Source: Wenzhouxiangella limi (GTDB taxonomy: Bacteria; Pseudomonadota; Gammaproteobacteria; Xanthomonadales; Wenzhouxiangellaceae). From it: a stretch of DNA of 64,000 nt. Positions 17,537-35,587 of the stretch are shown here, piece after piece. Where the stretch lies: assembly GCF_010499265.1 (NCBI RefSeq), contig NZ_JAAGSC010000039.1, positions 109,559-173,558 on the forward strand, read 5' to 3'. The translations under genes and the position numbers were made by a program. Every line of letters starts with the position of its first letter. The stretch's first letter is position 1. Under the pieces are notes generated by a model, which was not told the DNA's origin, made no database searches, and saw only the letters and a program-made list of their open reading frames with translations.

Positions 17537-18715
17537 ATGCAGGCCAGGGACACCGGTTCAACGAGGGAGTCGGCGGGCAGCGCCCGCAGCATGACGCTGG
17601 CGATCTTTGCCCCGGCGATGCTCGCGGTGGCCGGGATCGGGGGGCTGATCGGCCTGAACGCGACCTCGGCCACGCTCGGGGCGATTGTGCTCGCCGCAGC
17701 GGCCCTCAGCGCCTGGTGGATGCATCACCAGCAGGCAGAACAGGCGCGCGCTGCAGCCGCGGCGGCCGAGGCAGCGGCGCCGGACGGGGCGCTGGAGCAG
17801 CTGGTCGGTGAGTCGCTGCCGATCTGGTCGCGGCATATCGATCACTCCAACCGCTACGTCGAGGAGTCGGTCTCGGGGCTGATGCAGCAGTTCAGCTACC
17901 TGATCGACAGCCTCAACCAGTCGGTGTCGGCCTCCTCGGAGACCGACGGCAGCGACCACGTCATCGGCACCCTCAACAGCAGCCAGACCGACCTGTCCGA
18001 CGCGGTCAATGCCCTGCGCCAGACCCAGCAGTCGCGCCAGCAGATGCTCGAAGAGCTGCGCCAGCTCAAGACCTTCACCACCGAACTTCAGGACATGGCG
18101 ACAGAAGTCGTCTCGATCGCCGATCACACCAACCTGCTGGCGCTCAACGCCGGCATAGAGTCGGCGCGCGCGGGTGAGGCCGGCAAGGGATTCTCGGTCG
18201 TGGCGACCGAGATTCGCGGGTTGTCCTCGCGCTCGCGCGAAACCGCGACGCAAATGACCGAAAAAGTGACCTCGATCAAAAAGTCCATCGAGTCAACGGT
18301 AGATACTGCAGAACAGGCCCTGAGTCGGTCCAGCGAGCAGCTGGCCGAGACCGAGCAGAGCATCGATCACGTGATTACCAAGTCACGGGAAGTGATCGGG
18401 CAGCTTCAGCAGTCTTCCACCAACCTGCGTGAAGATGCCGAAGGCGTTCGCCGGGTGATCGAGCAGCTGATCGTGGAGCTGCAGTTCCAGGATCGGGTCA
18501 GCCAGATCCTGACCCAGGTCAGCCACAACCTGCGCGAGCTCGAGCAGGAGATCAGCGAAGCCAAGGATGCCGACGGTCGCATCCACAAGCTGGGTTTCGA
18601 CGCCGACGCCTGGCTGGCCAAGATGCAGGCCAGTTACACCATGCTCGACCAGCATCGAACGCACAAGGGCGAGGAACACCAGGCCGAGCAGGATTCGGAA
18701 ATCGAGTTCTTCTAG
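17537..18715 (+). CDS. Receptor-like signalling protein with no periplasmic domain and a CheZ-like motif
   Basis: The product is 392 residues. Two hydrophobic segments (about 19-41 and 44-62) are joined by a very short turn, so there is no sensory periplasmic domain. A coiled coil and a short receptor signalling hairpin follow, with the tip [20 protein letters not shown] (about 196-215). Near the C-terminus lies [11 protein letters not shown] (314-324), which has the same D-x3-Q spacing as the CheZ catalytic helix FQDLSGQ. ATG 17537 is preceded by AAAGGAGGG; upstream in-frame ATGs at 17504 and 17507 are possible. It is the first gene of the second block and may detect internal signals or act through CheA2. 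Confidence 0.85.
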
Positions 18716-18762
18716 GTAACTCTGAAATTGGGCAACACTGAAATACAGCAGGAGACAGCGCC

Positions 18763-19128
18763 TTGGAAAAGACGGTAATGATTGTCGACGACTCGGCGTC
18801 CCTGCGCCAGCTGGTGGTGCTGGCGCTGAAGGACTCCGGTTATCGCGTCGTCGAGGCCTGCGATGGCGTCGATGGTCTGTCCAAGCTTGACGCCGGACGC
18901 GTCCACCTGATCATCAGCGACGTCAACATGCCCAACATGGACGGACTGACCTTTCTCAAAGAGGTCAAGAAGCGTCCGGATACGCGCTTTACCCCGGTAA
19001 TCATGCTGACGACCGAATCGGCCGCCGACAAGAAAGACGAGGGTCGCGCGGCCGGTGCCAAGGCCTGGGTCGTCAAGCCATTTCAACCCCAGCAGATGCT
19101 GGCGGCGGTCAACAAACTGATTCAATAG
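18763..19128 (+). CDS. CheY-like response regulator of the second block
   Basis: This 121-residue single receiver has DD at 9-10, the phospho-acceptor in ISDVNMPNMDG, the signalling threonine in MLTTES, and the lysine in VVKPF. It starts at TTG 18763 with GGAG 8 bases upstream, giving MEKTVMIVDD. It lies between a receptor-like gene and a STAS gene, so it is most likely phosphorylated by CheA2. It differs from the motor-binding CheY at 5523 and need not bind the switch. Confidence 0.92.
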   Translation: MEKTVMIVDDSASLRQLVVLALKDSGYRVVEACDGVDGLSKLDAGRVHLIISDVNMPNMDGLTFLKEVKKRPDTRFTPVIMLTTESAADKKDEGRAAGAKAWVVKPFQPQQMLAAVNKLIQ

Positions 19129-19150
19129 CGCGCGAGCGCGGGGAGGCATC

Positions 19151-19516
19151 ATGCTGCAGGTGGAATCACGCGACGGGGCCAGCCATGTGGTCCTGGAAGG
19201 AGAACTGACCATCTACCAGGCCCAGGACCTCGCCCAGCAGTTCCTGCCGCTGCTCGACAAGGACGAAAGCCTGGTCGTGGATCTGTCTGATGTCAGCGAC
19301 ATCGACAGCAGCTGCGCCCAGCTGCTGATGCTGGCGCGTCGTCATTGCCAGGCGCGCGGGCATCAGTGTTCCCTGGTCAACCACAGCCAGCCGGTGATCG
19401 ATGTCTTCGAGACCCTGGGGCTGGTGTCGTGGTTCGGCGACCCGGTGGTGCTGCCCGGCGAACAGGGCAGCGGGCGTCGCACGCAGTCCGGCCAGACCGA
19501 GGGAGAAAGCGCATGA
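19151..19516 (+). CDS. STAS-domain protein of the second chemotaxis block
   Basis: This 121-residue protein resembles anti-sigma-factor antagonists. The core VVLEGELTIYQAQDL leads to DLSDVSDIDSSCAQLLML, where the serine pair holds the usual phosphorylation position. A polar tail follows. The strong site GGGGAGG lies before ATG 19151, and the stop overlaps cheA2. STAS genes beside cheA occur in several gammaproteobacterial second chemotaxis clusters. No partner kinase or anti-sigma factor is visible here. Confidence 0.88.
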   Translation: MLQVESRDGASHVVLEGELTIYQAQDLAQQFLPLLDKDESLVVDLSDVSDIDSSCAQLLMLARRHCQARGHQCSLVNHSQPVIDVFETLGLVSWFGDPVVLPGEQGSGRRTQSGQTEGESA

Positions 19517-21714
19517 GCATGGAAGCCGCCCTTCAGACCTATTTCACCGAAGCCCGCGAAATGCTAGAGGACATGGAGGCCCAGCTGCTCGAAATCGAGC
19601 ACCAGGATGCCGACGCGTTGCCCGAGACGCTCAACGCCATCTTCCGGGCCGCGCACACCGTCAAGGGGTCGGCCTCGCTGTTCGGGCTCGACGGGATCGT
19701 GGATTTTACCCACGTGGTCGAGAACCTGCTCGACCGGATGCGCGACGGCGATGTCGGCGTGTCTCCGGAGCTGGTCTCTTTGCTGCTGCGCTGCCAGGAC
19801 CACATCGCCACACTGGTCGACGAGACCGAGGCCGATGGCGAGGTCAGCGAGGACAGCCGCATCCTCAGCCGGGCGCTGATCGTGGAGCTGGGCGCCTACC
19901 TGGACGAAGGTGCGGGTTCGGCGTCGGACACATCCGGTCTGCCGGCAGCCGGCAAGGAGGTCGAGCAGGCCCACGATTACCCCGAAGATGAAAACGACGA
20001 TACGGTCGACAACGACTGCTGGCACATCTCGCTGCGGTTCGGTCGCAACTCCTTCCGCGATGGCATGGACCCGATCTCGTTTTTGCGCTTTCTCGAAAAC
20101 ATCGGCACCGTGCGCCACATCCTGATCCTGGACGACTGGCTGCCCGACCTGGCCGACTACGATCCCGAGGACTGCTACCTGGGCTTCGAGATCCGTTTCA
20201 TGTCTTCGGCCACCAAGAAAGAGATCGAGGACGTCTTCGAGTTTATCCGCGAAGACAGCGATATCCACATCCTGGCCCCGTACTCGCGCCTGTCGGACTA
20301 CATCGATCTGATTGAATCGATGAGCGAGGAGAGCGACCGCCGGATCGGCGAAATCCTGATCGAATGCGGCGCGTTGACCGAGGCCGAACTGGCCAAGGCA
20401 CTGGCCCTGCAGGCTGCGGCGGAAGAGGCTGACCAGTCGCGGCGCCTGGGCGAAATCGTCGCCCAGGACGATGATCGCCTTACCCCCGTGGTTGATGCTG
20501 CCGCCCAGAAGCAGACCCAGATGCGCGACGCCATCAACCGCAAGCAAAAAAGCCTGCGCGTGGATGCCGACAAGCTCGATCACCTGATCAACCTGGTCGG
20601 CGAACTGGTCACGGCCGGGGCGGGCACATTTCTGCAGGCCCAGATCCTGGGCAACGCGGAACTCATCGAGTCGATGTCCAAGCTCAACGATCTGCTCGAA
20701 GAGATGCGAGATGCCTCGCTCAAGCTGCGGATGGTGGCCATTGGCGCGACCTTCAGCAAGTTCCAGCGGGTAGTGCGCGATATGGCCGCCGATCTCGACA
20801 AGGAAGTCGACCTGGCCATTACCGGCGCCGACACCGAGCTCGACAAGTCCGTGGTCGAAAAGATCGGTGATCCGCTGATGCACCTGGTGCGCAACGCCGT
20901 CGATCACGGCCTGGAGTCTTCGGCCGAGCGCGAAGCGGCCGGCAAGCCCCTGACCGGCACCATCAGCCTCAACGCCTACCACGATTCGGGCAACATCGTC
21001 ATCGAGGTCGGCGACGACGGGCGCGGACTGGACCCGGACAAGATCCTGGCCAAGGCGCGCGAAAAGGGCCTGGTGGGCGAGGATCAGCAGCTCAGCCGCG
21101 CCGAGATCTTTGATCTGATTCTCAGGCCGGGTTTTTCGACGGCCGAACAGGTCTCCAACATTTCCGGGCGCGGGGTCGGCATGGACGTGGTTCGCCGCAA
21201 CGTCATCGAAATGCGCGGTCGCACCGAGATCGATTCGGCCCCGGGTGAGGGTACGACCATCCGCATCATCCTGCCGCTGACCCTGGCCATCATCGACGGT
21301 TTCGTCGTCGGGGTTGGCAAGGCGGCTTTCGTCGTGCCGCTCGACGTGGTTCAAGAATGCGTCGAGTTCTCGGAAGTCGACCAGACCGAGCGCGACGGCC
21401 AGACCTACATCAACCTGCGCGGCAACGTCCTGCCGCTGGTCAACATCCGCCACCGCTTTGGCGTCCAGGGCGAGCGCCCCAAGCGCCGGTCGGTGGTCGT
21501 GGTCAAGGCCGAAGGCCAGTCGGTCGGCCTGGTGGTCGATCGCCTGATGGGCGAATTCCAGACCGTCATCAAGCCGCTGGGCCCGGTGTTTACCGGCTTG
21601 AGCGGTATCAGCGGCTCGACCATCATGGGCAGCGGGGAGGTTGCACTGATCCTGGACGTCCAGGGCCTGGTGCAGCAGATCACGCGCGGTGAGCGCACCG
21701 CCGCCAATCACTGA
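19513..21714 (+). CDS. cheA: Chemotaxis histidine kinase CheA (second copy)
   Basis: This 733-residue CheA has an Hpt domain with His48 in AAHTVKGSASLFGL. A region at about 170-270 (starting CWHISLRFGRNSFRDG) looks like a regulator-binding domain, and a short segment RRIGEILIECGALTEAELA (about 277-295) resembles the N-terminal module of GspE-type proteins. Dimerisation, HATPase (VRNAVDHG, DDGRGLD, GRGVGMDVVRRN) and the CheW-like domain follow. ATG 19513 overlaps the STAS stop. It differs in architecture from the first CheA, so the two kinases probably serve separate arrays or outputs. Confidence 0.95.
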   Translation: MSMEAALQTYFTEAREMLEDMEAQLLEIEHQDADALPETLNAIFRAAHTVKGSASLFGLDGIVDFTHVVENLLDRMRDGDVGVSPELVSLLLRCQDHIATLVDETEADGEVSEDSRILSRALIVELGAYLDEGAGSASDTSGLPAAGKEVEQAHDYPEDENDDTVDNDCWHISLRFGRNSFRDGMDPISFLRFLENIGTVRHILILDDWLPDLADYDPEDCYLGFEIRFMSSATKKEIEDVFEFIREDSDIHILAPYSRLSDYIDLIESMSEESDRRIGEILIECGALTEAELAKALALQAAAEEADQSRRLGEIVAQDDDRLTPVVDAAAQKQTQMRDAINRKQKSLRVDADKLDHLINLVGELVTAGAGTFLQAQILGNAELIESMSKLNDLLEEMRDASLKLRMVAIGATFSKFQRVVRDMAADLDKEVDLAITGADTELDKSVVEKIGDPLMHLVRNAVDHGLESSAEREAAGKPLTGTISLNAYHDSGNIVIEVGDDGRGLDPDKILAKAREKGLVGEDQQLSRAEIFDLILRPGFSTAEQVSNISGRGVGMDVVRRNVIEMRGRTEIDSAPGEGTTIRIILPLTLAIIDGFVVGVGKAAFVVPLDVVQECVEFSEVDQTERDGQTYINLRGNVLPLVNIRHRFGVQGERPKRRSVVVVKAEGQSVGLVVDRLMGEFQTVIKPLGPVFTGLSGISGSTIMGSGEVALILDVQGLVQQITRGERTAANH

Positions 21715-21738
21715 ATCGACTCCAACCGGGGAAAAGCA

Positions 21739-22359
21739 ATGACGCAGACCAACACCAAGTCCAGCCTGCCCGTCAAGGGCCAGTCCACGGCGGTGACCGC
21801 CGCCGGCCTGGCCGCGGCCGGCAGCGACGAGAACCAGTACCTGACCTTCAAGCTGCAGTCCGAGACCTATGCCTTCGGCATTCTCAACGTCAAGGAAATT
21901 TTAGAGTACGGCAAGATCACCAAAGTGCCGATGATGCCGGACTTCATCCAGGGCGTGATCAACCTGCGCGGCGAGGTCGTGCCGGTGGTCAACCTGGCGC
22001 GGCGTTTTGGCCTCAAGGCCTCTGAGATCACCAAGCGGACCTGCGTGGTCATCATCGAGATCGGCGCCGAGGAGGCTCGCCACGAGCTGGGCGTGATGGT
22101 CGACAGCGTCTCCGAAGTGCTCGAGATCGAAGACGACCAGATCCGCCCCGCGCCGGGCTTTGGCGCCAGGATCCGCAACGACTTCATTCGCGGCATGGGC
22201 AAGCTCAACGACGATTTCGTCATCATCCTGGACCAGGACAAGGTGCTGTCGGTCGACGAACTGGCCGCAGTTCAGCAGGTCCGCGACATGGCGCCGGCGC
22301 ATCTGCCCGAAGAGGACGACGACGATGATAGCGGGGAGGCCGAGCCGGGAAAGGGCTGA
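21739..22359 (+). CDS. cheW: Coupling protein CheW of the second block
   Basis: This CheW-family protein of 206 residues is longer than usual because of an about 30-residue low-complexity N-terminus and an acidic C-terminal tail with a run of aspartates. The core is YLTFKLQSETYAFGILNVKE, then VINLRGEVVPVVNLARRFGL and GVMVDSVSEVLEI. CCGGGGAAAA precedes the ATG. It lies 24 bp after cheA2 and probably couples it to the receptors at 17537 and 25028. Confidence 0.94.
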   Translation: MTQTNTKSSLPVKGQSTAVTAAGLAAAGSDENQYLTFKLQSETYAFGILNVKEILEYGKITKVPMMPDFIQGVINLRGEVVPVVNLARRFGLKASEITKRTCVVIIEIGAEEARHELGVMVDSVSEVLEIEDDQIRPAPGFGARIRNDFIRGMGKLNDDFVIILDQDKVLSVDELAAVQQVRDMAPAHLPEEDDDDDSGEAEPGKG

Positions 22360-22442
22360 CCGATCAGCGGGAGCCAATTGCAGCTGCGGACACTTGACGC
22401 AGCCGGGGCCATCGTTGATGGCGATTGTCGGGAGTCGGGGCG

Positions 22443-23306
22443 TTGAATGATTCCAGCGGAACGGACAAGCGGGCCAGCGCCGACCCCGGTGTTGCACCGA
22501 TCCTGTCCGATGCAGAGTTCGAGCTGTTCAGAAAGCTGATTTACGACGCTGCCGGGATTTCCATGGCGCCGTCGAAAAAGGCGCTGATCTCCGGGCGTTT
22601 GAGCAAGCGTCTGCGGGAACTCGGCTACGCGACCTTCCGCGAGTACTTCAACTGGATCGACAAGGCGCGCAACGACCCGGCCGCCCTGCGCGAGCGCCAG
22701 AACGCGATCGATCACCTGACCACCAACGAAACCTATTTCTTTCGCGAACCCCGCCACTTCGAGTTCATCGAAAAGCGCCTGATCCCGCACTGGGCCGGGC
22801 GGTCGGTCCGGCTGTGGAGTGCGGCCAGCTCCAGCGGCGAGGAGGCCTATACCCTGGCCATGGTGATGGAACAACACCATCGCGGTAGCTGGGAAATCGT
22901 CGGCACCGACATCAGTACCCGCGTGGTCGCCGCCGCCACCCGCGGTCAGTACCCGCTGCTGCGGGCCAACAATATCCCCAAGGAATTCCTGCGCAAGTAC
23001 TGCCTCAAGGGTGTGGGTGAACACGCAGGCACATTTCGCCTGGAAAGCAAGCTGCGGCGCAAGGTGTCATTTCGGGCCGCCAATCTGCAGGAAGATTTAT
23101 CCTCGGTCGGTATGTTCGACCTTGTCATGCTGCGCAACGTGCTGATCTATTTCGACCTCGAGATCAAAAAGCGCGTGGTGGCCAACGTTCTGCGCCAGCT
23201 CAAGCCCGGCGGCTGCCTGATGGTGGGTCATGCCGAGAGCCTGCATGGTGTCACCGCGGCGGTCAAAGCGGTACAACCGGCGACCTATATCAAGGAAGGG
23301 GATTGA
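22443..23306 (+). CDS. cheR: Chemoreceptor methyltransferase CheR (copy 2)
   Basis: This 287-residue CheR has the N-terminal alpha domain (LSDAEFELFRKLIYDAAGIS), SAM-binding LWSAASSSGEEAYTLAM, and FDLVMLRNVLIYFD. No ATG is available near the proper start. I chose TTG 22443 because GGAG lies 8 bases upstream; TTG 22425 is an alternative. Its stop shares one base with the cheD2 start (TGATG). Confidence 0.93.
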   Translation: MNDSSGTDKRASADPGVAPILSDAEFELFRKLIYDAAGISMAPSKKALISGRLSKRLRELGYATFREYFNWIDKARNDPAALRERQNAIDHLTTNETYFFREPRHFEFIEKRLIPHWAGRSVRLWSAASSSGEEAYTLAMVMEQHHRGSWEIVGTDISTRVVAAATRGQYPLLRANNIPKEFLRKYCLKGVGEHAGTFRLESKLRRKVSFRAANLQEDLSSVGMFDLVMLRNVLIYFDLEIKKRVVANVLRQLKPGGCLMVGHAESLHGVTAAVKAVQPATYIKEGD

Positions 23307-23860
23307 TGTCTGCGGCACTGAATACCACGTCCGGCGACCCGACCGTCGAGCCGATCGTGCTCTCGCCCGGCGAACTGTTCTTCGGTCGTGCGCCCGCGGC
23401 CGTTCGAACCTTGCTCGGCTCGTGCGTTGCCGTCACCTTGTGGCATCCGCAGATGCGCTGTGGCGGCATGTGTCATTACCTGCTGGGGCGTCGGACCGGC
23501 CAGGCGTCCGGTGAGACGGCAAAGGCGCCGGGTTACTACGCCACCTCGGCGATCGAATTTCTCGCCGACAGGGTGCGCGCTGCGGGCGGCCGGCCGGAGG
23601 CCTTCGAGGCCAAGGTCTTCGGGGGCGGCCAGATGTTCGATGAAAGCCTTGTTGCCGCATCGCCGCTGGATGTTGCTGCCGACAATGTCACGATCGGGCT
23701 GGAACTGCTCAAGCGCGAAGGTTTTCGTGTGAGCGCCGCCGATACCGGCGGACAACGGCATCGCAAAGTATTGCTCGACCTTGGTTCAGGCGAGGTCTGG
23801 GTCCAGTACGGCCAACGTTTCTCTGCGCCGGTTGCGCTCAAAGGGAGAAGATCATCATGA
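23306..23860 (+). CDS. cheD: Chemoreceptor deamidase CheD (copy 2)
   Basis: This 184-residue CheD has the catalytic cysteine in [13 protein letters not shown] and the histidine in [10 protein letters not shown]. Relative to copy 1 it has two extra cysteines near the active site. ATG 23306 follows GGAAGGGG; the stop overlaps cheB2 (ATGA). Two full cheR-cheD-cheB units within 9 kb suggest dedicated adaptation for each array. Confidence 0.92.
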
Positions 23861-24924
23861 CCGGCAGAAAGATTTCCGTCCTGATCGTCGATGACTCGGC
23901 GGTGGTGCGCCAGGTCCTGACCGAGATGCTGTCGGCCGATCGCGGCATCGAGGTCATGGGCGCGGCGCCGGACCCGATTTTCGCCATGAAAAAGATGGAG
24001 GCGCGCTGGCCGGACGTCATCGTGCTCGACATCGAAATGCCGCGCATGGATGGCCTGACGTTCCTGCGCAAAATCATGAGCGAGCGACCGACGCCGGTGG
24101 TGATCTGCTCGACGCTGACGCAAAAAGGCGCCGAGACCACCATGCAGGCCATGAGCGCCGGTGCGGTCAGCATCATCACCAAGCCGCGCGCCGGCCTGAA
24201 GGGGTTCCTGCAGGACTCGGCCAACGACGTGGCCACGGCGGTCAAGGCGGCGGCCAAGGCGCGCATGAGCAAGGTCAGCGCCTCGGCGAGCGCCCCGGTG
24301 GAAACCGCGCACGTCGCGCCGGTGCGCGGCTCGATGCTCAAGACCACCCAGCAGCTTGTCGCCATTGGCACCTCGACCGGGGGAACCCAGGCGCTGGAGG
24401 TGGTGCTCAGGGCCTTGCCGGCGCTGTGCCCGGGGATCGTGATCGTCCAGCACATGCCCGAGAAATTCACCGACATGTTTGCCCAGCGGCTCAACAGCCT
24501 GTGCAAGATCCAGGTGCGCGAGGCCAGGGATCGCGACCGGGTCCTGCCGGGCACTGCCCTGATTGCGCCGGGCGGGCGCCACATGAAGATCGAGCGCAGC
24601 GGCGCCCACTACATCACGCGGGTCTTCGACGGCCCGCCGGTCAACCGCCACAAGCCCTCGGTGGATGTGCTGTTCCGTTCCGTGGCCGACCAGGCCGGCA
24701 AGAACGCGGTCGGCTTCATTCTCACCGGCATGGGCGGCGACGGTGCCCGGGGCTTGAAAGCGATGCACGATGCCGGCGCCCACACCGTGGCCCAGGACGA
24801 GAAGTCCTCGATCGTTTTCGGAATGCCCAAGGAAGCCATTGCCCTGGGTGCAGCCGACAAGGTCATCGGCCTGGGTGAGGTGGCCCGCGAAATCATGGGT
24901 TCGGCGACGGCGGATCATTTGTAA
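23857..24924 (+). CDS. cheB: Chemoreceptor methylesterase CheB (copy 2)
   Basis: This receiver plus methylesterase protein has 355 residues. The receiver has [10 protein letters not shown] and the phospho-acceptor in [10 protein letters not shown]. The esterase has the serine in [11 protein letters not shown], a histidine in VQHMPEKF and the aspartate in [11 protein letters not shown]. The ATGA overlap with cheD2 and GGGAGAAG site support the start. The linker between the domains is longer than in copy 1, and overall the two CheB copies are clearly diverged. Confidence 0.95.
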
Positions 24925-24978: not shown

Positions 24979-25027
24979 CGTAAATTTCCGCGGCCTTCTG
25001 CGGACGTCAAAAAGGGAGTCGAGAACA

Positions 25028-27064
25028 ATGTCCTTCAAGAACCTCAAGATCGGTACGAAAATCCTGTCCGGGTTTGCCATCATTCTGGCCATCGCCATCG
25101 CCATTGGCGTGATCGGCTTCAGCGGGCTCACCGGTGTGGGCAATTCTTTCCATCAGGTGGCTCAACAGCGACTGCCGGCCGTGCAGACCCTGGGCGAGGT
25201 CGAGGCCAACTTGCTGCAGTTGATCAACAGCTACGGACTTTTACTTGATACCCGCCAGGATCGGGCCGACCGGGATCGTTTGACCCGCGCGATTCAAGAC
25301 TACCGCGCCACCTACCAGGCGGCTCAGGAGGAATACCTGCAGCTCGAGCAAACCGCCGAGGAAGAGCGGGTCTACCAGCGCCTGGTCGCGGCCATGCAGG
25401 AACTGGCCGACATCAATACCACCCGGGTCAACCCGCAACACCAGAGTTTCCTGGATATTGACCTGATGCAGCCGGTGGCCACCAATCGCGACCTTGAGCG
25501 GTTCATGAAAGACCATGCCTTGCTCCAGGTCCGGGTGCTCGAAGCGATCGAGAACATGGAGGCTTTCAACGGCGGTGATGATCCCACCGCCTGCAACTTC
25601 GGTCGCTGGTTGCCGGACTTCCGCACCGGCAACGACCAGATCAATGGCCTGATCCGGGAAATCATGCCGTTCCACGATGAATTCCACGCCGCGGTTGCGC
25701 AGATCAACCAGGCTATCGCCAACGGCAACCGTGACCGGGCCTTCGAGATCTATGCCGAGCAGATGGCGCCGGCCGCCGTCGGTGTGTTCAGATTCTTCAA
25801 CGGCATCAACGAGGCCGCCCAGGAAGCGGTCGCGGCCCTGGAGTCAATGAACGAACTGATCACCGGGCCGGCACGTGAGGCCCAGTCCAATGTCCTGGAC
25901 GCGTTCGAGGAACTGCAGGCGCTGGTTGTGGCCAATGCTGAGCAGGATGTTGTTAGCGGCGATGCGGTCATCACCCGAAGCAATACGATCAACTTCGCGG
26001 CCATGATTATCGGTGCCATCATCGCCGTGGTCATGGGGCTGCTGATTACGCGCATGATCACCAGCGGCATCAACTCAGGCGTCGGCATTGCCAAGCGGAT
26101 CGCTGATGGTGATCTGACCGTCAAGGCCGACCAGGCCTTGCTGGCCCAGAAAGACGAGGTCGGCGAGCTGGTCCAGGCCATGGATCGCATGGCCCGCAAG
26201 CTCAGGGAAATCATCGGCTCGGTAATCACCGGCGCCGACAACATCACCGCGGCCAGCGAGCAGACCTCTTCGACCGCCCAGTCCTTGAGCCAGGGCGCGA
26301 GCGAGCAGGCCGCCAGCGTCGAGGAGACCACGGCCTCGGTCGAGCAGATGTCGGCCTCGATCGAACAGAACACCGAAAACGCCAAGGTCACCGACACCAT
26401 GGCCTCCAAGGCCGCCACCGACGCCGGCGAAGGCGGGCAGGCGGTGGGCAAGACGGTCGACGCCATGAAGTCGATTGCCGAGAAGATCTCGATCATCGAC
26501 GATATTGCCTACCAGACCAACCTGCTGGCGCTCAACGCCGCCATCGAGGCAGCCCGGGCCGGCGAGCACGGCAAGGGGTTTGCCGTCGTTGCCGCCGAGG
26601 TGCGCAAGCTGGCCGAGCGCAGCCAGGTGGCTTCGCAGGAAATCGGCGAGGTCGCCAAGGGCAGCGTCAGCCTGGCGGTGCGCGCCGGCGAGCTGCTCGA
26701 CGAGATCGTCCCGGCGATCCAGAAGACCTCGGATCTGGTCCAGGAGATCAGCGCGGCCTCAACCGAGCAGAGCTCGGGGGCCAACCAGATCAACCAGGCC
26801 ATGGAGCAGCTCAATGCCATCACCCAGCAGTCGGCCTCGGCCTCCGAAGAACTGGCCTCGACGTCTGAAGAGATGAGCGGCCAGGCCCAGCAGCTCCAGC
26901 AGCTGGTGTCGTTTTTCACCATCGAGGGCGGCTCGGGCCAGTCCGGCGGCGGCTTTTCGATGAAGAACGATCCGCCGCCCAAAGCGCCGGAGCCGCACAA
27001 GGCCGAGAGCCGGCAGGCCGATTCATCCAGTGACGAGGACGAGTCCGGGTTCGTGCGCTTCTGA
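25028..27064 (+). CDS. Chemoreceptor with an extracytoplasmic CZB-type zinc motif
   Basis: This 678-residue receptor has TM1 at about 12-34, a large helical periplasmic domain, TM2 at about 318-341, HAMP, and a signalling hairpin with the tip [19 protein letters not shown]. Inside the periplasmic part, His163, Cys189 (CNFGRW), His216 and His220 (HDEFH) reproduce the chemoreceptor zinc-binding pattern Hxx[WFYL]x(21-28)CxxGx[W]x(18-27)HxxxH. CZB domains are usually cytoplasmic and sense zinc or oxidants such as hypochlorite. The C-terminus GFVRF fits the relaxed CheR/CheB tether pattern. ATG 25028 gives the conserved opening; the frame is open upstream. A paralogue lies at 33563-35587. Confidence 0.92.
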
Positions 27065-27076
27065 GCCCGGTTCGGC

Positions 27077-27093
27077 GACCTTTTTTAAAGGTC
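27077..27093. terminator. Weak bidirectional hairpin between converging genes
   Basis: A 17-base hairpin (7-bp arms GACCTTT/AAAGGTC, T-rich centre) lies between the receptor stop and the convergent gene and includes the latter's stop codon. It has low GC and no separate T-tract, so termination is only suggested. Confidence 0.35.
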
Positions 27094-28539
27094 CCGCGCC
27101 ACCCGGAAACCGACCCGCATGTCGGTGGACGTCTCGCTGCCGGCCAGGCGATAGGCCGAGCGCGACATGTCGGGCGTGCTGCTCCACGAGCCGCCCCGGA
27201 TGACTCGCTGACCGCATCCGGCGTTGACCCAGGCCGAGCCGTCGGACGGGGCGCGCACGAAGCTGTCGTGCCAGCAGTCCTCGGTCCACTCCATCACGTT
27301 GCCGCCGATGTCGTGGAGGCCGAAGGGGTTGGCGGGATAACTGCCGACCGGTGCGGGTCCCCAGTGGCCGTCGCTGTACTGGCCGAAGGCGACGCTCCAG
27401 CTGGCGCCGCTGGGCGAGAGGTCGCCGTCGCCGGTCAGGTTCTCGATCGGTTCATCGGGGCTCCCATGGCCCCACCAGTAACGGCTCTGGCTGCGCGCGC
27501 GCAGGGCGTATTCGAATTCCGCCTCGGTCGGCAGGCGGTAGCCGAGGCCGGTGCGCTCGCCCAGCCACTGCGCGTAGGCCCGGGCATCGCGCCAGGAAAC
27601 GTGGATCACCGGCATATCCGGCTCCGCCGGCTGGCCGCGGTAGTCGTGGCGCCAGTGAATCCGGTTGCGGCGGCTCATGCGCCCGCTGCGCACTTCATAG
27701 ACCCGCGACCAGCCGCGCTGCTCGGCGTCGGTGGTGTAGTCACTGCTGTCGATGAATTCGCCAAACTGGGCGACGGTGATTTCGGTTACCGCCAGCGCGA
27801 AGCCCTGGCGCAGGACAATGCGATGGCGCGGGCCCTCATGCGCGGCGCGCCCGCTTTCGCTTTCCGGTGAGCCCATCATGTACTGGCCCGAAGGAATGAC
27901 CACCATGGCCGGGCCGAGCCGGTCGGCATCGCCGTCGAGCGGATCGCGCAGGATCTGACCGGGCTGGTGGCGGCCGTACAGCCGGGCGTAGGATAGTTCC
28001 TGGCGCAGCGCCTGGATCCGTGGCCTCGGCAGGCCGATGGCGATGAGGTCGGTGATCGCGTCTTCGGCCTGGACGAAGCGGCCGGCGACGATGAGATCAC
28101 GGGCTTCCTGCTCGGCCTGTTCGAGATGTTCGCCGCGCAGTTTCTGCACCCGGCTGCGAGCCTGCTCGAAGGCGTCTGAGGCCTGCTCCGTGGCCTCGGC
28201 CCGCTGCAGCAGGTCCTCGGCGGCCTCGAACTCCAGCTCGCCGGCCAGCAGCAGCGCCGCTTCCAGGGCCGCCTGGTAGACCGCGGCCAGACCGGCGCGG
28301 GCCTGTTCGTTGTCCGGGTCCATTGCCAGGGCCTGCTGGTACAGGTCCATGGCGCTGCTGCCCGGGGGCGCGACCAGCCAGCCGCGAACCAGCGCATCGT
28401 CGGCTGATTGCATCAGGGCTTCCAGCGCCGGATCGGCACTTTGTCCGGCCGCTTGCCCTTCATCGGACTGCGCGTGGGCGAGGGCCGCAACGGCGCTCAG
28501 CGAGATCCACAACAGCACAATGAGGGGCTTTTGAAGCAT
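27085..28539 (-). CDS. Secreted SUMF1/formylglycine-fold protein lacking the catalytic cysteines
   Basis: This 484-residue protein has a clear signal peptide (MLQKPLIVLLWISLSAVAAL, cleavage near AHAQ). A helical region (about 30-200) looks TPR- or coiled-coil-like. A C-terminal SUMF1/FGE-sulfatase fold (about 215-484) has IPSGQYMMGSPESE, RLPTEAEFEYALRA, GNVMEWTEDCW and VIRGGSWSS. True formylglycine-generating enzymes have two cysteines shortly after RGGS; here that stretch reads TPDMSRSAYR, so catalytic oxidation is unlikely. It is probably a periplasmic or envelope structural or binding protein. It converges with the CZB receptor gene and diverges from the HDOD gene. Confidence 0.85.
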   Translation of the reverse strand: MLQKPLIVLLWISLSAVAALAHAQSDEGQAAGQSADPALEALMQSADDALVRGWLVAPPGSSAMDLYQQALAMDPDNEQARAGLAAVYQAALEAALLLAGELEFEAAEDLLQRAEATEQASDAFEQARSRVQKLRGEHLEQAEQEARDLIVAGRFVQAEDAITDLIAIGLPRPRIQALRQELSYARLYGRHQPGQILRDPLDGDADRLGPAMVVIPSGQYMMGSPESESGRAAHEGPRHRIVLRQGFALAVTEITVAQFGEFIDSSDYTTDAEQRGWSRVYEVRSGRMSRRNRIHWRHDYRGQPAEPDMPVIHVSWRDARAYAQWLGERTGLGYRLPTEAEFEYALRARSQSRYWWGHGSPDEPIENLTGDGDLSPSGASWSVAFGQYSDGHWGPAPVGSYPANPFGLHDIGGNVMEWTEDCWHDSFVRAPSDGSAWVNAGCGQRVIRGGSWSSTPDMSRSAYRLAGSETSTDMRVGFRVARDL

Positions 28540-28651
28540 GCAGAAAGTCTGGCAGGTGCGGGCAGAATCGGCAGCACGGCGGCCGCCCGAAAGGTCTCTC
28601 GCAATTATCCGGCAATCGGATAAAAAACGCCAGCGACGAAAAAATCTCCGC

Positions 28652-28679
28652 TTGCAGTCCGCACAAGCGCTGATATACT
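28652..28679 (+). promoter_or_regulatory. sigma-70 promoter of the HDOD gene
   Basis: TTGCAG (28652-28657) and TATACT (28674-28679) are spaced by 16 bases, and TGA before the -10 gives an extended -10 element. Transcription would begin near 28686 and leave an about 53-base leader containing a 6-bp hairpin (28710-28726). There is no good Shine-Dalgarno sequence before ATG 28739. Confidence 0.65.
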
Positions 28680-28738
28680 CGGTTGAAGTCAGGAAGTTAA
28701 CGGTATAAGCTCAGGCACAACCTGAGAAAACAACCAGC

Positions 28739-30235
28739 ATGCTCACACCGAGAATCAAAACGGCGCTTCGTTTTTGCCCGGACCTGCCCACGCCGCCGGG
28801 GATCGCCATGCAGATCGTGGATCTGGCCCGCGACCCGGAAGTGGACCTGAGTTCGCTGGTGGAAATGTTATCCCAGGACCCGGCGCTGGCCGCGCGGCTG
28901 ATGCGCGCCAGCAATTCCTGCCTGTTTGCCCGGCGCCGCAAGAGCGAGAGCCTGCGCCAGGCCATCGTTGTCATCGGGCTCAACGCCACCATGACCCTGG
29001 CGCTGAGTTTTTCCCTGGCCCGGACGCTGCAGCAGGACAACGCCGACACCGAGGGCATTGAGCGCAGCTGGCGGCGCGTGCTGATTGCCAGCTGCGCCGC
29101 GCGCCTGATCGGCAGCCGCCTGCGTCGCCGCGACAGCGAAGAGCTGGCCCTGGCCGCGCTGCTGCAGGATATCGGCATCCTGGCGCTGCGTGCGGCCCTG
29201 CCGGAAGAATACCGACCGCTGCTGGAAGAAGCCCGCGATCACGAAGAACTGGTCCGGCTGGAGCGCGAACGCCTGGGCGCCGATCACGCCGAGGCCGGCA
29301 GCTGGCTGATGGCGCACTGGAAGCTGCCCGAAAAACTGGTCAACGTTCCGGTCTGCGTCCACGGCCGCAGCCCCAACGCCGACCAGGCAGAACACGCAGT
29401 ATTTTTCGCGGTCGTCGAGGTGGCCGGCAAGGTCGCCGACCTGCTGCTGGGTGACGATACCGGGGAACTGACCGAAGAACTGATGCGTACCGCCGCCAAG
29501 CTCGACGACCTGGACCGGGCGTTTCTCGAGTCGCTGCTGACCGAGATTTCCGAGCGCCTGCCTGAAATGGCCGAGCTTTACGATACCGAGATCATCGCGC
29601 CGCAGCTTTTGACCGGGATCATCGACCAGGCCCGCCAGGCCATGGCGGACCGCCAGGTCATGGCCAACCGCGAGGCCTATTTTTACGAGCAGCGCGTCGC
29701 CAGCCACGGCGCGGCCAGCGCCGCGAGCGCCCAGGCCGCGGAGGCGGTGGTCGAATCGCCCCCGATGGAGCTGCTCGACGAGCGGCTGGACCTGGAGTTT
29801 CGCCGCGCCACCACCCTGGGCCATCCGCTGTCGCTGGCTTTCGTGCGCCTGGACGAACGCGATGAGCTGGTCTCGCGCCACGGACCGAATGACGTCGAAG
29901 CGGTGCTCCAGGTACTGCGTCGGCGCCTGGCCCGCCTGACCGGCCAGGCCCAGCTGGTGTTTTCCTCGGCGCCCGATGAGTTCGTGGTGTTGCTGCCGGG
30001 CGTATCGCGTTCGCGCGCCCACGACCAGCTGGAGCGTTTGCGGGCCGCAACCGCCGGCGAAGACTTCTACGATGCCGACGAGGAACCCTTCCGCGTCACC
30101 CTGTCGATCGGCCTGGCCTGTCACATGGACGAAAGCCAGCTCTACGGTCGGGCCATCGAGTTGCTGGGTGCGGCCGATCAGGCCATTCGCGGGCCGGACG
30201 GTGAAGGCGGCAATACCCTGACCATGGCCTGCTAG
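28739..30235 (+). CDS. HDOD-domain protein with a degenerate GGDEF domain
   Basis: This 498-residue cytoplasmic protein has an N-terminal HDOD domain at about 10-210 (LPTPPGIAMQIVDLARDP, LSQDPALAARLMRASNS). A connector of about 120 residues leads to a C-terminal GGDEF-fold domain (about 335-490). The catalytic loop reads SSAPDEFVVLL instead of GGDEF, so cyclase activity is unlikely and a nucleotide-binding or structural role is more plausible. It has its own promoter. HDOD-GGDEF proteins are common signalling proteins in gammaproteobacteria. It converges with a GGDEF-EAL gene. Confidence 0.88.
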   Translation: MLTPRIKTALRFCPDLPTPPGIAMQIVDLARDPEVDLSSLVEMLSQDPALAARLMRASNSCLFARRRKSESLRQAIVVIGLNATMTLALSFSLARTLQQDNADTEGIERSWRRVLIASCAARLIGSRLRRRDSEELALAALLQDIGILALRAALPEEYRPLLEEARDHEELVRLERERLGADHAEAGSWLMAHWKLPEKLVNVPVCVHGRSPNADQAEHAVFFAVVEVAGKVADLLLGDDTGELTEELMRTAAKLDDLDRAFLESLLTEISERLPEMAELYDTEIIAPQLLTGIIDQARQAMADRQVMANREAYFYEQRVASHGAASAASAQAAEAVVESPPMELLDERLDLEFRRATTLGHPLSLAFVRLDERDELVSRHGPNDVEAVLQVLRRRLARLTGQAQLVFSSAPDEFVVLLPGVSRSRAHDQLERLRAATAGEDFYDADEEPFRVTLSIGLACHMDESQLYGRAIELLGAADQAIRGPDGEGGNTLTMAC

Positions 30236-30247
30236 TGGTCCACTAGC
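30231..30247. repeat. Palindrome containing both stop codons of two converging genes
   Basis: GCTAGTGGTCCACTAGC is a perfect inverted repeat with 8-bp arms. The plus-strand gene ends at TAG 30233-30235 and the minus-strand gene at TAG (30245-30243), both inside it. It could form a short bidirectional structure; there is no T-tract. Confidence 0.7.
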
Positions 30248-32906
30248 GGTTGGTGCGGGCCCACAGCCGCATCAGGTCATTGGGCGGCAGCGGTCGGCTG
30301 AAGAAATAGCCCTGGATAAAATCGCAGTTGCGGTCGGTCAGAAACGCCAGCTGCTCGGCGTTTTCCACGCCCTCGGCGATGACCTGGACGTGCAGATCCT
30401 GGGCCATGCTCAGCACGGCCGAAACGATGGCGGCATCGTCTGAGTCGGTCTTGAGATCGCGCACGAACGACTTGTCGATCTTGAGGTGATCGACCTTGAA
30501 CTGCTTGAGATAGCTGAGGCTGGAATAGCCGGTCCCGAAGTCATCGATGGCCAGGCGAACGCCCAGCGGACGGAGCTGGTTGAGTACGGTGCGGGCCTTG
30601 TCGACGTCACTCATGATGACGTTTTCGGTCAGCTCGATCTCCAGATCGCGCCCGGACAGGCCGGAGCTCGCCAGCGATTGCTGGATTGACTGCATCAGGT
30701 TCCCGCGCCAGAACTGCACCGCCGAGACGTTGACGCACACCATCAGATTCTTCATCCCCAGGCGTTTCCAGCTGGCCAGCTGCATCAGCGCCGTTTCGAT
30801 GACCCAGTGCCCGATCTCGACGATCAGGCCGCTCTGCTCGGCGACCGGGATGAACTGCTCCGGGCTGACCCGACCCAGTACGGGACTGTTCCAGCGCAGC
30901 AGGGCCTCGGCGGCCCGGATCCGACCCGACTGCGGCTCCACGATCGGCTGGTAGACCAGCTGCAGCTCATCGTTGGCCAGCGCTCCGCGCAGGTGGGTCT
31001 CCGTACTCAGGCGCTCGTAGGCGCGCTTGTTGAGCTCCCGGGTGAAAAACTCGAAGGTCGCGCGACCCTGCTCCTTGGCGTGGTACATCGCCGTATCGGC
31101 GTGGCGGATCAGTGCCTCGGACTGGTCCCCGTCTTCGGGGTAGATGGAAATCCCGATGCTGGGCGTGATGACCAGTTCATGGCCATCGATCTCGAACACC
31201 TCGCGAAACTCCCGAATCAGGCTGTTGGCTTTCTGGGTGGCGGCGTCGAAACCCGCGCCCGGCATCACGATGACGAACTCGTCGCCCCCCAGGCGGCTGA
31301 TGGTGTCGTACTGGCGCAGGGATTTCTGCAGGCGTTCGCTGACCGAGACCAGCAGCTGGTCGCCGATGCCGTGGCCGAGCGAGTCGTTGACCGCCTTGAA
31401 CCGGTCGAGATCCATGAACATGACTGCGACCGGTCGCTGCTTGCGCCCGGCATGGGCGATGGCCTGGCCGATGCGATCGTTGAGCAGGGTGCGGTTGGGC
31501 AGCCCGGTGAGCGGGTCATAGTGGGCCAGGCGGTGGACGGCTTCCTCGGCCTGCTTGCGCTCGGTGATATCGGAGATCACGCCGTCAAAATGGGCGACGG
31601 AGCCGTCGGCGTTGCGGCTGGCCACGGCGCTGTTGATGGCATAGAAGTGGCTGCCGTCGGGGCGGACGAACTCCACCTCCTGGTTGCGGTAGGCGCCGTC
31701 GTCGATCAGTAGCTGGTAGAGCTTCTCGCGCTGGCTGGGCGAGGCGTACAGAATCGGACCGGAGCGCTCCATCATCGTCTCGGTATCGGCAAAGCCGAAC
31801 ATATGCGCCAGCGCCTGGTTGATGTAGACCAGCCCCTGGCCCGGCACACCCCGGTAAATCCCCTCCGAGATATTGTTGGTCACCGACTCCAGCAGTTGCT
31901 CGCTGTCGCGATAGGCCTGAGTGGCCTCATCGACCATTTGTTCGGCCCGAGCGCGCGTTCGCAGGATCGACATCAGCAGGGCCCCGAGCAGCAGGGCGAT
32001 CGCCAGACCGGCCGTCAACAGCAAAATCATGTTCAGGTTCGACCCCGAAGACGTGCCCACGACCAGGTGAAAATCCCGCCCGCCCAGCGACAGCGTGCGT
32101 TCGCTCTCGATCACACCGCGGGCCTGGGCCTGATCAGCGCTATGGCTCAGCAACAGCGGCTCGTTTGCGGCCCGGTCACGAAACTGCAATGTCAGATCGC
32201 TGCGCGAGGCCAGCCCGGAAAACAGCGACTCCAGAGCGACCGTGCCGCCGACCCAGCCGCCGGCCTGGGACGGGCTTGCATCGACCCATGCCAGCATGAC
32301 GTAGCCGCTCATCGGCGTGGCGGCGTCGGCCACCAGGTTGACCGGGTCGGAGATCCGGACCTGACCGGTCTCGCGGGCCATGCGGGCGGCGGGCAGGGTT
32401 TTGGGGCGGGTGCAGATATCGAGACCCAGCGAGTCGAGGTGGGTCTCCAGCGGCTCGTTGTAGACGATGGGGCAATAGAGCTCACGCGGGTCGGGCGGCT
32501 GCAGCTGAAAGTCGACGATGCCTTCCTCGTTCAGCCGTTGCCGCAGCGCGGGCAGATCCGGGGCGACGATGCGCTCGGCCCAGAACATTTCGAACATGCC
32601 ATCGTCGGCGTCCACGGCTGTCTGCACGAAGCGACGCCATTCGTCGCGGTCGACGTGGTCGCTGCTGGCAAACAGCGCGGCGGCCGCCTGTACCCGGCTT
32701 TCATGGCGCTGAAAACGGCTGCGGATCAGACCGTAAATCTGGTCCGCCCGGCTTTCGAGAATGCGGGACTGGGCCTGTTTCTCGGATTTCGCCAGAAACC
32801 CCACCGCCGTGACGCTGGCCGCTGCCACGACCAGGCTCAGCAACAGGGCCAGCAGATAGTGCGTGCGCTGATGCCGGCGGGTCAGGCCGGGCATGGTTCG
32901 GGGCAC
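30243..32906 (-). CDS. CHASE-PAS-GGDEF-EAL cyclic-di-GMP protein
   Basis: This 887-residue membrane protein may make and break c-di-GMP. TM1 is near 17-38, and a periplasmic CHASE-type sensor lies at about 65-285 (VDADDGMFEMFWAERI). TM2 is near 291-315. A PAS domain (about 340-455) leads into a GGDEF domain with intact GGDEF (near 541) and an upstream RxxD inhibitory site (RQYD), then an EAL domain with EALLRW near 665, DDFGTGYSSL and KIDKSFV. Both catalytic motifs look intact, so the net activity cannot be read. The start may be the second Met (MPGLTRR). It stands alone between convergent and divergent neighbours. Confidence 0.93.
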   Translation of the reverse strand: MPRTMPGLTRRHQRTHYLLALLLSLVVAAASVTAVGFLAKSEKQAQSRILESRADQIYGLIRSRFQRHESRVQAAAALFASSDHVDRDEWRRFVQTAVDADDGMFEMFWAERIVAPDLPALRQRLNEEGIVDFQLQPPDPRELYCPIVYNEPLETHLDSLGLDICTRPKTLPAARMARETGQVRISDPVNLVADAATPMSGYVMLAWVDASPSQAGGWVGGTVALESLFSGLASRSDLTLQFRDRAANEPLLLSHSADQAQARGVIESERTLSLGGRDFHLVVGTSSGSNLNMILLLTAGLAIALLLGALLMSILRTRARAEQMVDEATQAYRDSEQLLESVTNNISEGIYRGVPGQGLVYINQALAHMFGFADTETMMERSGPILYASPSQREKLYQLLIDDGAYRNQEVEFVRPDGSHFYAINSAVASRNADGSVAHFDGVISDITERKQAEEAVHRLAHYDPLTGLPNRTLLNDRIGQAIAHAGRKQRPVAVMFMDLDRFKAVNDSLGHGIGDQLLVSVSERLQKSLRQYDTISRLGGDEFVIVMPGAGFDAATQKANSLIREFREVFEIDGHELVITPSIGISIYPEDGDQSEALIRHADTAMYHAKEQGRATFEFFTRELNKRAYERLSTETHLRGALANDELQLVYQPIVEPQSGRIRAAEALLRWNSPVLGRVSPEQFIPVAEQSGLIVEIGHWVIETALMQLASWKRLGMKNLMVCVNVSAVQFWRGNLMQSIQQSLASSGLSGRDLEIELTENVIMSDVDKARTVLNQLRPLGVRLAIDDFGTGYSSLSYLKQFKVDHLKIDKSFVRDLKTDSDDAAIVSAVLSMAQDLHVQVIAEGVENAEQLAFLTDRNCDFIQGYFFSRPLPPNDLMRLWARTNR

Positions 32907-33010
32907 CAGTTCATGGCTGAATGATAACCGCCAGCGATGGCAGGGTCACCTGCCGCAGCGCCGGCATAGTAAACTGCGCGGCGAACACACGAGCCCGCTG
33001 GAACCAGATC

Positions 33011-33475
33011 ATGTCTGCCGCTGCCTTGAGCGACCACTACCCGCGTTTTCACCTGGCGCTGCCGGTGACCGACCTCGACGAGACCGTACGCTTCTACACC
33101 CAGGTGCTGGGCTGCGCCACCGGCCGCAGCGCCGAACGCTGGGTGGACCTGGATTTCTTCGGCCACCAGCTGGTGCTGCACAAGGTGGCACCCGAAGATC
33201 ATCCGGCCGCGGCGAGCAACCCGGTCGACGGCCACGCCGTGCCGGCCAGCCATTTCGGGCCGGTACTGGAATGGGACGATTTCCAGGCCATGGCCAAGCG
33301 CCTGCGCGCGGCCGGCATCGACTTTGTCATCGAGCCCTACCTGCGCTTCGAGGGCCGCCGCGGCGAGCAGGCCACCATGTTCATCGCCGACCCCAGCGGC
33401 AACCACCTCGAGTTCAAGTCATTCAAGGATATCGGCATGCTGTTTGCCACCGACCTGGATACGCCGACGTCCTAG
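33011..33475 (+). CDS. VOC (glyoxalase/dioxygenase-fold) family protein
   Basis: This 154-residue protein has the paired beta-alpha-beta-beta-beta fold of vicinal oxygen chelate proteins: FHLALPVTDLDETVRFYTQV near the start and FIADPSGNHLEFKSF near the end. Candidate metal ligands are the N-terminal His of FHLALPV and the Glu of HLEFKSF. The substrate is unknown; such proteins include glyoxalases, dioxygenases and resistance proteins. I chose ATG 33011 because the upstream extension is arginine-rich and not family-like. It converges with the receptor gene at 33563. Confidence 0.85.
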   Translation: MSAAALSDHYPRFHLALPVTDLDETVRFYTQVLGCATGRSAERWVDLDFFGHQLVLHKVAPEDHPAAASNPVDGHAVPASHFGPVLEWDDFQAMAKRLRAAGIDFVIEPYLRFEGRRGEQATMFIADPSGNHLEFKSFKDIGMLFATDLDTPTS

Positions 33476-33487
33476 GTCAGCGACGAT

Positions 33488-33506
33488 GACCCTGCACTGC
33501 AGGGTC
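33488..33506. terminator. Hairpin between converging VOC and receptor genes
   Basis: GACCCTGCACTGCAGGGTC is a perfect 9-bp inverted repeat with a single central base, 13 bases after the VOC stop. Its position suits termination, although there is no long T-run. Confidence 0.4.
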
Positions 33507-33562
33507 TCCCGCCAGCGCCTCCAGCAGAGACGAGAGCAGAAATCGCTTCGCCAGCCCGTCTA

Positions 33563-35587
33563 TCAAAAGCGCACGAACCCGGAGTCGTCGGGCTGCGCCT
33601 GGGCCGCTGGTGGAGGGTGGCGGGACACTTCTCTGGTTGGTGGCGGAACCGACCCGCCGCCGCCTTTTTCGGCTCCAGCGTCGCGCTCGAAACGGAAAAA
33701 CGACACCGCATTTTGCAGCTGTTGGGCCTGGCCTTTCATTTCTTCCGAAGTCGAGGCCAGCTGCTCGGAGGCCGAAGCCGATTGCTGGGTGATGGCGTTG
33801 AGCTGCTCCATGGCCTGTCCAACCTGCGTGGCGCCACTGGATTGCTCGTTCGACGCGGCGCTGATTTCCTGGACGAGATTGGAGGTTTTCTGGATCGCCG
33901 GCACGATCTCATCCAGCAGCTCCCCCGCCCGGACTGCCAGGTTGACGCTGTTTTTGGCGACCTCACCGATTTCCTGGGCGGCCACCTGGCTGCGTTCGGC
34001 CAGGTTTCTGACCTCGGTTGCCACCACGGCAAAGCCTTTTCCATGCTCTCCGGCCCGAGCCGCTTCGATGGCCGCATTCAGGGCCAGCAGGTTGGTCTGG
34101 TAAGCGATGTCGTCGATGATGGATATCTTCTCGGCAATGGACTTCATGGCGTCGACCGTCTCGGTGACCGCCTTGCCCCCCTCGGTCGCATCATCGGCGG
34201 CCTTGGTGGAGATCGTGTCGGTGACTTTGGCGTTTTCCGTGTTCTGTGCGATCGAGGCCGACATCTGTTCAATGGAGGCCGTGGTCTCCTCGACGCTCGC
34301 TGCCTGCTGGCTGGCGCCCTGGCTCAGGCTTTGGGCGGTGGAGGCGGTCTGGTCGCTGGCCGCCGTGATGCTTTCGGCGCCCGATGCGACCGTGCTCAAG
34401 GCCTGCCGGAGCTTGCCTGCCATTGCATCCATGGCCCGTACGAGATCGCCGACTTCATCGCGCTGCGCGACCAGCGTCGAATCAGCCTGCACTGACAGAT
34501 CCCCCTGGGCAATGCTTTCCGCCATGACAACGCCCTGCTTGATGCCGCCGGTCACCATGCGCGTCATCAGCAGTCCGAGCGCAATGGCAATGACGACTCC
34601 GAAACTCATGCCGGAAATGTTGACCAGGTTGCTTTGGGTGATCAATGTATCGACGACTTCTACATCGCCTTCAGTTCTTGCGGCAACCAGGCGTTCCAGT
34701 TCCGCAAACGAATCAACCACGTCGGCTCGCGCGGCGGTGGCCGCGCCTGCCAATACCGACGACATCTCGCTGATCGCGGTCGCGCCGGTCTGGGCGAGCG
34801 TGTTGATCTGCTCAAAATAATCGAACGCGGCATCCGCCGTTGGAATCATCTGCGCTTCAAAAATGCGCAGGGCTTGTGCCTGACTGCCTTCCGCGATCGC
34901 GGTGTTGATCAAGGGAACCGCGGCATGCAAGGCATCATGCTGCGGGATCATTTGCTGAATCAGCGCATCAATTTCTGGATTGTCGTGTTCAAAAGACGCC
35001 AGCCATTTCGCGAAACTGCACGCGGTGGGATCGAGGCCACGCTCGATCTGGCGCATGTCGGTAATGGAGCGCAACACGTACAGGCGGAAGCCCTCATGGT
35101 TTCGCATGACCTGCAGGATGTCCCGATTCTGGGCGATCGGACTCATGAGGCCAAGCGAAAGAAAAGTCTGGTGCCGCGGATCTATTTCGCGCCTGTTGAT
35201 TTCGTGTAGCGCCTCGAGCGAAGCATTGAGTCGCTGGTAGGCCTGCTCTTCTTCGGGTGAGCGATCGTAGGCGTCGTACTGGCGCTTGTAGTCTTGATAT
35301 GCGGCGCGGTAGGCGTCGATGTCGGCGACCAGCGCCTCGCGTTCCGACCGATCCTGCTCGGTGCTCAGCAAGAGGCTGTAGCTGTTGATGAGGTTGAGCA
35401 GTTCCACTTCCATGGACGCCAGCAGCTTGACCGCGGGCATCCGCTGCTCTGCGACCTCATGGAACGACTGACCAATCTTGTTCAAGCTCAGGTAGGCAAC
35501 AAATCCGCCCATCATGGACAGCGCCAGAATGAACCCGAGACCCGAAAGGATCTTGGTGCGAATCTTCAGGTGACGTACAAAGGTCAT
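33563..35587 (-). CDS. Chemoreceptor with CZB-type zinc motif (paralogue of 25028-27064)
   Basis: This 674-residue receptor has TM1 at about 13-33, an extracytoplasmic helical domain, TM2 at about 322-345, HAMP, and the signalling tip [19 protein letters not shown]. The CZB pattern is again present with His164, Cys190 (CSFAKW, Gly replaced by Ala), His217 and His221 (HDALH). Like its paralogue it ends in GFVRF, a possible CheR/CheB tether. It stands alone about 6.5 kb from the chemotaxis block, so it probably feeds the same arrays in trans. Confidence 0.92.

Follow-up and report, generated by a model that had tools for sequence, protein, structure and literature searches.

Two chemoreceptors, MCP-A and MCP-B, encoded in the 64,000-nucleotide stretch of the Wenzhouxiangella limi genome analysed here (the window), contain a CZB domain that, judged by hydropathy and domain order, is periplasmic. 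This placement is not new for a CZB domain; what our analysis adds is the unusual build of the sensor, in which a 4HB-like part precedes the CZB. We consider labile periplasmic zinc, sensed directly or through redox, to be the most likely signal of the two receptors, and give this reading about an even chance of being correct.

Results

Two chemoreceptors with a predicted periplasmic CZB domain

MCP-A (678 aa) is encoded at positions 25028-27064 on the plus strand. Its frame is open from 24770, its ATG start codon is located at 25028, and the sequence GGGAG at 25014-25018 is a candidate ribosome site. MCP-B (674 aa; 33563-35587, minus strand) lies 6.5 kb beyond MCP-A on the opposite strand. 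The span 25028-35587 also holds four unrelated genes, which encode an FGE-sulfatase-domain protein, an HDOD-GGDEF protein, a CHASE-PAS-GGDEF-EAL protein and a glyoxalase. By eye, the GGDEF motif of the HDOD-GGDEF protein (28739-30235, plus strand) reads APDEF, and this protein is probably inactive as a cyclase.

The original prediction had placed the zinc-binding motifs of both proteins between TM1 and TM2. Using a hydropathy threshold of 1.6, two hydrophobic segments were detected per protein, at residues 6-39 and 318-349 of MCP-A and at residues 12-35 and 319-349 of MCP-B; the runner-up windows of the two proteins reached at most 1.1. In MCP-A, TM1 corresponds to about residues 12-33 (25061-25126, plus strand) and TM2 to about residues 322-341 (25991-26050, plus strand). 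The equivalent segments of MCP-B are residues 12-35 (35483-35554, minus strand) and about residues 322-343 (34559-34624, minus strand). According to Pfam, the second segment is followed in both proteins by a HAMP domain (MCP-A, residues 340-394, 26045-26209, plus strand; MCP-B, residues 341-395, 34403-34567, minus strand) and then by an MCPsignal domain. To contact CheA and CheW, the signalling domain of an MCP has to be cytoplasmic. Because the signalling domain is located beyond the second segment, the sensor between the two segments is predicted to be periplasmic. Thus, this topology check by hydropathy and domain order bears out the proposed position of the motifs and puts the domain on the periplasmic side in both proteins.

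The CZB of MCP-A (residues 163-226; 25514-25705, plus strand) matches the Pfam CZB profile (PF13682) with 31.2 bits (E 2.9e-7), which is above the curated cut-off of 29.4. The CZB of MCP-B (residues 164-226; 34910-35098, minus strand), assigned by alignment to MCP-A, scores 17.4 bits (E 0.0057), below the same cut-off. The 3His-1Cys sets that had been proposed, His163/Cys189/His216/His220 in MCP-A and His164/Cys190/His217/His221 in MCP-B, were confirmed at the level of the residues and are in register in the alignment. Cys189 is the only cysteine of MCP-A, which has histidines at positions 42, 138, 163, 216, 220, 514 and 657; Cys190 is the only cysteine of MCP-B, which has ten histidines, including those at 164, 217 and 221.

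We aligned the two proteins with three homologues, a third receptor of the same genome, the product of locus L005 and that of locus L012 in the sister genome G193. Four of the five (MCP-A, MCP-B, L005 and the third receptor), with pairwise identities of 20.9-69.7%, have the same residues in all ligand columns. Among the 345 ungapped columns 43 are invariant, and the chance of finding all four ligands among these is 2e-4. In the fifth homologue, L012, Phe replaces the first His and Ser the Cys, and the last two ligands are retained. A profile search aligned the Cys and the HxxxH motif with those of DgcZ, this being a weak PDB profile match (E 0.075), and a phmmer search of the MCP-A sensor against the PDB gave a single match that is not meaningful (E 1.1).

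The Ala reported to replace the usual Gly of MCP-B is real: the fourth place of the Cys motif is Gly in MCP-A (CNFGRW) and Ala in MCP-B (CSFAKW). Gly at this place is described as almost universal among CZB domains (PMC8262984). Another CZB, that of L048, has Ser there (CEFSRW).

The sensors combine a 4HB-like part and a CZB

The sensor is about 285 residues long and consists of a 4HB-like part followed by the CZB. In MCP-A, the first part comprises about residues 34-142 (25127-25453, plus strand), as delimited by Pfam and by the helices of the model described below; the profiles 4HB_MCP_1 and TarH match residues 5-127 (60.8 bits) and 3-124 (44.6 bits), respectively. The 4HB_MCP_1 match is partial, covering profile positions 1-122 of 181 in MCP-A and 2-124 in MCP-B and leaving the end of the profile unmatched. 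The Pfam HBM profile gave no match at E <= 1 in either protein, so that the sensors are HBM-like by predicted fold only.

AlphaFold2 models, each built from three sequences, are of low confidence (pLDDT 66 and pTM 0.47; pLDDT 74.6 and pTM 0.66). They contain seven helices in an order common to MCP-A and MCP-B, the last of which runs from the CZB to TM2 and measures 88 and 99 residues, with a pLDDT below 50 for its final 29-32 residues. From the helix lengths in these low-confidence models, we infer that the CZB would form the outer storey of the sensor. Foldseek returned no match at E <= 0.001 for either model. The MCP-A model had its first match in the DgcZ CZB (E 0.046; TM-score 0.69, normalized by target length), and the bimodular sensors TorS and McpS were among the matches listed. 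For the MCP-B model, the first match was the bimodular sensor McpS; MCP2201 was among the matches listed, and DgcZ was absent from the best 50. The models, at their low confidence, thus resemble two-storey (bimodular) sensors. With the HBM sensors McpS and TorS, MCP-A and MCP-B would share a helical sensor in two storeys, flanked by TM1 and TM2; unlike in these, one storey of MCP-A and MCP-B is a CZB.

A similar sensor length is found in the receptors with two periplasmic CZB domains in tandem that are described below (e.g., L063 and L046), and the half from the CZB to TM2 aligns with the same half of the tandem receptors with a probability of 99.0. The tandem receptors have two complete CZBs, whereas the first storey of MCP-A and MCP-B is 4HB-like. 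That this first storey might be a decayed CZB is unsupported, since the first halves align with those of the tandem receptors at TM1 only, over 32 columns.

Genomic context of the receptors

MCP-A is located at the end of a che cluster (16027-24924, plus strand) that encodes, in this order, a CheB-like protein, an MCPsignal protein, a STAS-domain protein, CheA, CheW, CheR, CheD and CheB. The position of MCP-A is kept in the sister genome G193, where the same che order leads to its relative. The cheD gene, located between cheR and cheB (23303-23860, plus strand), was not found in the corresponding G193 cluster, in which CheR adjoins CheB. The STAS-domain protein (19151-19516, plus strand) is encoded directly 5' of cheA, which is unusual company, and this arrangement is kept in G193. 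The window, which also carries flagellar genes, contains two cheA genes, one at 6669-8744 (plus strand), followed by motA and motB, and one at 19345-21714 (plus strand), in the cluster of MCP-A. A scan for sigma-28 promoters gave three matches, none of them at MCP-A or MCP-B, and as many were obtained in 8 of 100 shuffles.

A CZB family search of the genome (E <= 0.001) detected four places: MCP-A, the third receptor, and two proteins in which the CZB follows GGDEF and EAL stretches. MCP-B is absent from these matches and was recovered by protein search. The third receptor (contig C33, 681 aa) has the same build as MCP-A and MCP-B. Its ligands H167, C192, H219 and H223 are located between hydrophobic segments 11-45 and 323-348, and its two cysteines are the periplasmic ligand and Cys354, which lies beyond TM2 in the HAMP region. 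All three receptors end in GFVRF, in agreement with the xZxxZ pentapeptide rule (Z = F, W or Y; PMC7390727). A periplasmic CZB is therefore predicted in three of the 11 receptors of this genome, which correspond to 14 rows of the MCP search, three being second halves. In a run of genes on one strand (L094:2708-9106, minus strand), the gene of the third receptor comes first, and genes for a CheW-like protein, a PAS-GGDEF-EAL protein and a PAS-GGDEF protein come after it.

The signalling domains of all three CZB receptors are encoded less than 3 kb from a GGDEF match. We rejected a special link to c-di-GMP, since such proximity is not specific to them: 7 of the 11 receptors have at least one of the 46 GGDEF matches at a distance of 4 kb or less.

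Relatives in the genus and the order

Within the genus, CZB matches were found at 14 places in 9 of 30 genomes. Three of the places are receptors, encoded by the window's genome and by G193; at ten, the CZB ends a frame with GGDEF or EAL, and at the remaining one (L112) it ends a 612-residue stretch without a hydrophobic segment. The MCP search gave at most one match in 26 of the 30 genomes, two in G154, six in G193, seven in G051 and 14 in the window's genome. These counts indicate that CZB receptors occur where the chemotaxis set is larger, although no CZB match was found in G051.

In the order, a relative of the sensor was found in 2 of 299 genomes. Locus L005 and locus L010 of G193 contain an identical 529-residue frame, and L012 of G193 (L012:1381-2913, plus strand) encodes the paralogue without two of the four ligands, in a frame that is open to the contig end. 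Among the genomes searched, G193 is the only one besides the window's own in which the 4HB-like plus CZB build was seen, and this count is a lower bound.

Periplasmic CZB domains across the class and the phylum

As the original prediction had proposed, we searched for other CZB domains between two membrane helices, and these were found in genomes of the phylum and of the Gammaproteobacteria. In the phylum, the CZB stretch was matched in 39 of 398 genomes. Of thirty loci fetched, 16 carry a pair of CZB motifs flanked by two hydrophobic segments (L063, L072-L074, L076-L080, L082-L087 and L091), another 13 are short frames with a single CZB, and the last is MCP-A. Both motifs are complete in the 15 tandem loci examined, L077 being the sixteenth. 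A hydrophobic segment is lacking in 12 of the 13 short single-CZB loci and present in both frames of the remaining one, L089; the two that were domain-scanned are both CheW-CZB.

Among the Gammaproteobacteria, 116 of 369 genomes gave a CZB match, and at least eight, the window's own included, encode receptors with a periplasmic CZB. The class-level alignment searches scored at most five candidates per genome, so that the counts of relatives are lower bounds. Tandem CZBs occur in 2 of the 369 genomes (G514 and G517; loci L046 and L047), and single periplasmic CZB receptors in G617, G545, G376 and G386. In a receptor of G543 (L123:1420-3555, plus strand), a CZB, an sCache_2 domain and another CZB lie between two membrane segments that are spaced by about 455 residues. 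Genome G625 encodes two histidine kinases (HisKA, HATPase_c) in which a CZB is flanked by two membrane segments (L121:496-2592, minus strand; L133:1414-3516, plus strand). The best 30 loci of the family search are mostly soluble or membrane receptors with the CZB after the signalling domain; in these strongest matches, a script found no CZB between membrane segments. L045, which aligns over the whole sensor, has no CZB match and contains 4HB_MCP_1, HAMP and MCPsignal only. A pattern search of viral contigs gave 64 matches, and no relative was among them.

In a tree that included the flanking helix (74 rows, the rows of 13 near-duplicate loci having been dropped beforehand), all periplasmic CZBs are on one side of a branch (96/94), and the group of the window's receptors is placed among the second CZBs of the tandem receptors. 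A single origin of the periplasmic CZBs was nevertheless not adopted as a conclusion. With the core-only tree (68 rows, also without L001, L003, L012, L027, L043 and L056), neither a union with CheW-linked CZBs (p-AU 0.505) nor one with the second tandem CZBs (p-AU 0.608) is rejected.

Discussion

That most CZB domains are cytoplasmic, as the original prediction stated, agrees with the survey of Perkins et al. 2021 (PMC8262984), in which 384 sequences, about 3.9%, are putatively periplasmic. As in the periplasmic subgroup described there, MCP-A and MCP-B are membrane-bound chemoreceptors whose CZB lies in the periplasmic N-terminal region, and the second place of the motif is not Arg (Asn in MCP-A, Ser in MCP-B). 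We found no description there of a 4HB-plus-CZB sensor of about 285 residues or of an Ala at the Gly place, and the seven CZB subgroups, as we read them, name no histidine kinase. Chemoreceptors with an N-terminal CZB and a C-terminal pentapeptide are already in print (PMC7390727), and MCP-A and MCP-B share with these the N-terminal CZB, the signalling domain and the C-terminal xZxxZ motif. Like the soluble receptors TlpD and McpA, they couple a 3His-1Cys CZB to an MCP signalling domain; unlike in these, where the CZB is C-terminal and cytoplasmic, it precedes TM2. In the openly accessible article texts searched, we found no description of a tandem periplasmic CZB, a 4HB-CZB sensor or a histidine kinase with a periplasmic CZB.

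We propose the following mechanism. In a two-storey sensor, as the models suggest, the 4HB-like part would be next to the membrane and the CZB above it, connected to TM2 by the long last helix. The CZB would hold one Zn2+ via H163, C189, H216 and H220 in MCP-A and via H164, C190, H217 and H221 in MCP-B. Gain or loss of zinc might shift the last helix, and the movement would be passed via TM2 and HAMP to the kinase CheA. For TlpD, the zinc-bound form is reported to be kinase-on (PMC12871147), and by analogy zinc binding may switch the kinase on here. The signal would most likely be labile periplasmic zinc, which would track outside zinc, pH and redox state, and direct oxidation of the lone thiolate may be a second input.

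Of the possible readings, we rank zinc sensing first, with oxidant sensing and structural zinc behind. A direct oxidant sensor, in which zinc is always bound until HOCl or a similar compound attacks the thiolate, frees the zinc and switches the receptor, appears unlikely to us. DgcZ reportedly works through direct oxidation of the CZB cysteine (PMC8262984), and the thiolate of the sole cysteine of each receptor is predicted to be outside the cytoplasm. However, a 2026 preprint (PMC13370339) argues that CZB domains respond mainly to zinc availability rather than to direct oxidation, and no gene pointing to oxidants was seen in the neighbourhood scanned. The affinity of the site bears on this choice. 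For DgcZ a subfemtomolar zinc affinity is quoted (PMC8262984); if that of the periplasmic site were similar, the site might always be full and unable to report zinc. A site that is always full would favour oxidant sensing, whereas a weaker site would favour zinc sensing.

A similarly small probability is given to a purely structural zinc that stiffens the outer storey, with the 4HB-like storey acting as the binding site of an organic acid or another small molecule. The good matches of the first part of MCP-A to 4HB_MCP_1 and TarH are in line with such a role, as are the organic-acid sensors McpS and MCP2201 among the Foldseek matches listed and the frame of L012, still open to the contig end despite the two missing ligands. 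Against it, zinc is the regulatory part in the CZB domains that have been studied (PMC12871147, PMC8262984). A decaying, non-functional site, above all in MCP-B, is very improbable: MCP-B scores below the Pfam cut-off and L012 has lost two ligands, but MCP-A, MCP-B, L005 and the third receptor all retain the full set of ligands in an alignment in which the majority of columns vary.

More tentatively, and with a likelihood clearly short of that of zinc sensing itself, periplasmic CZBs may be modular two-storey zinc sensors whose sites come and go per storey, being present in both (tandem receptors), in the outer storey only (MCP-A, MCP-B and the third receptor), in the first only (the two G625 histidine kinases) or broken (L012). 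The receptors of the window would then serve specifically to detect extracytoplasmic zinc or redox state, acting via one exposed thiolate.

The CZB domain is known, yet it is rarely placed on the periplasmic face of the inner membrane, and a CZB outside the cytoplasm meets a different zinc pool and a different redox environment. The stimulus of CZB domains is disputed, the two models being direct oxidation of the thiolate and free zinc acting as a redox messenger. Receptors with a single cysteine, together with a natural relative without two of the ligands (L012), would help to tell both models apart. MCP-A and MCP-B are therefore promising subjects for the question of whether bacteria navigate by extracytoplasmic zinc or oxidants.
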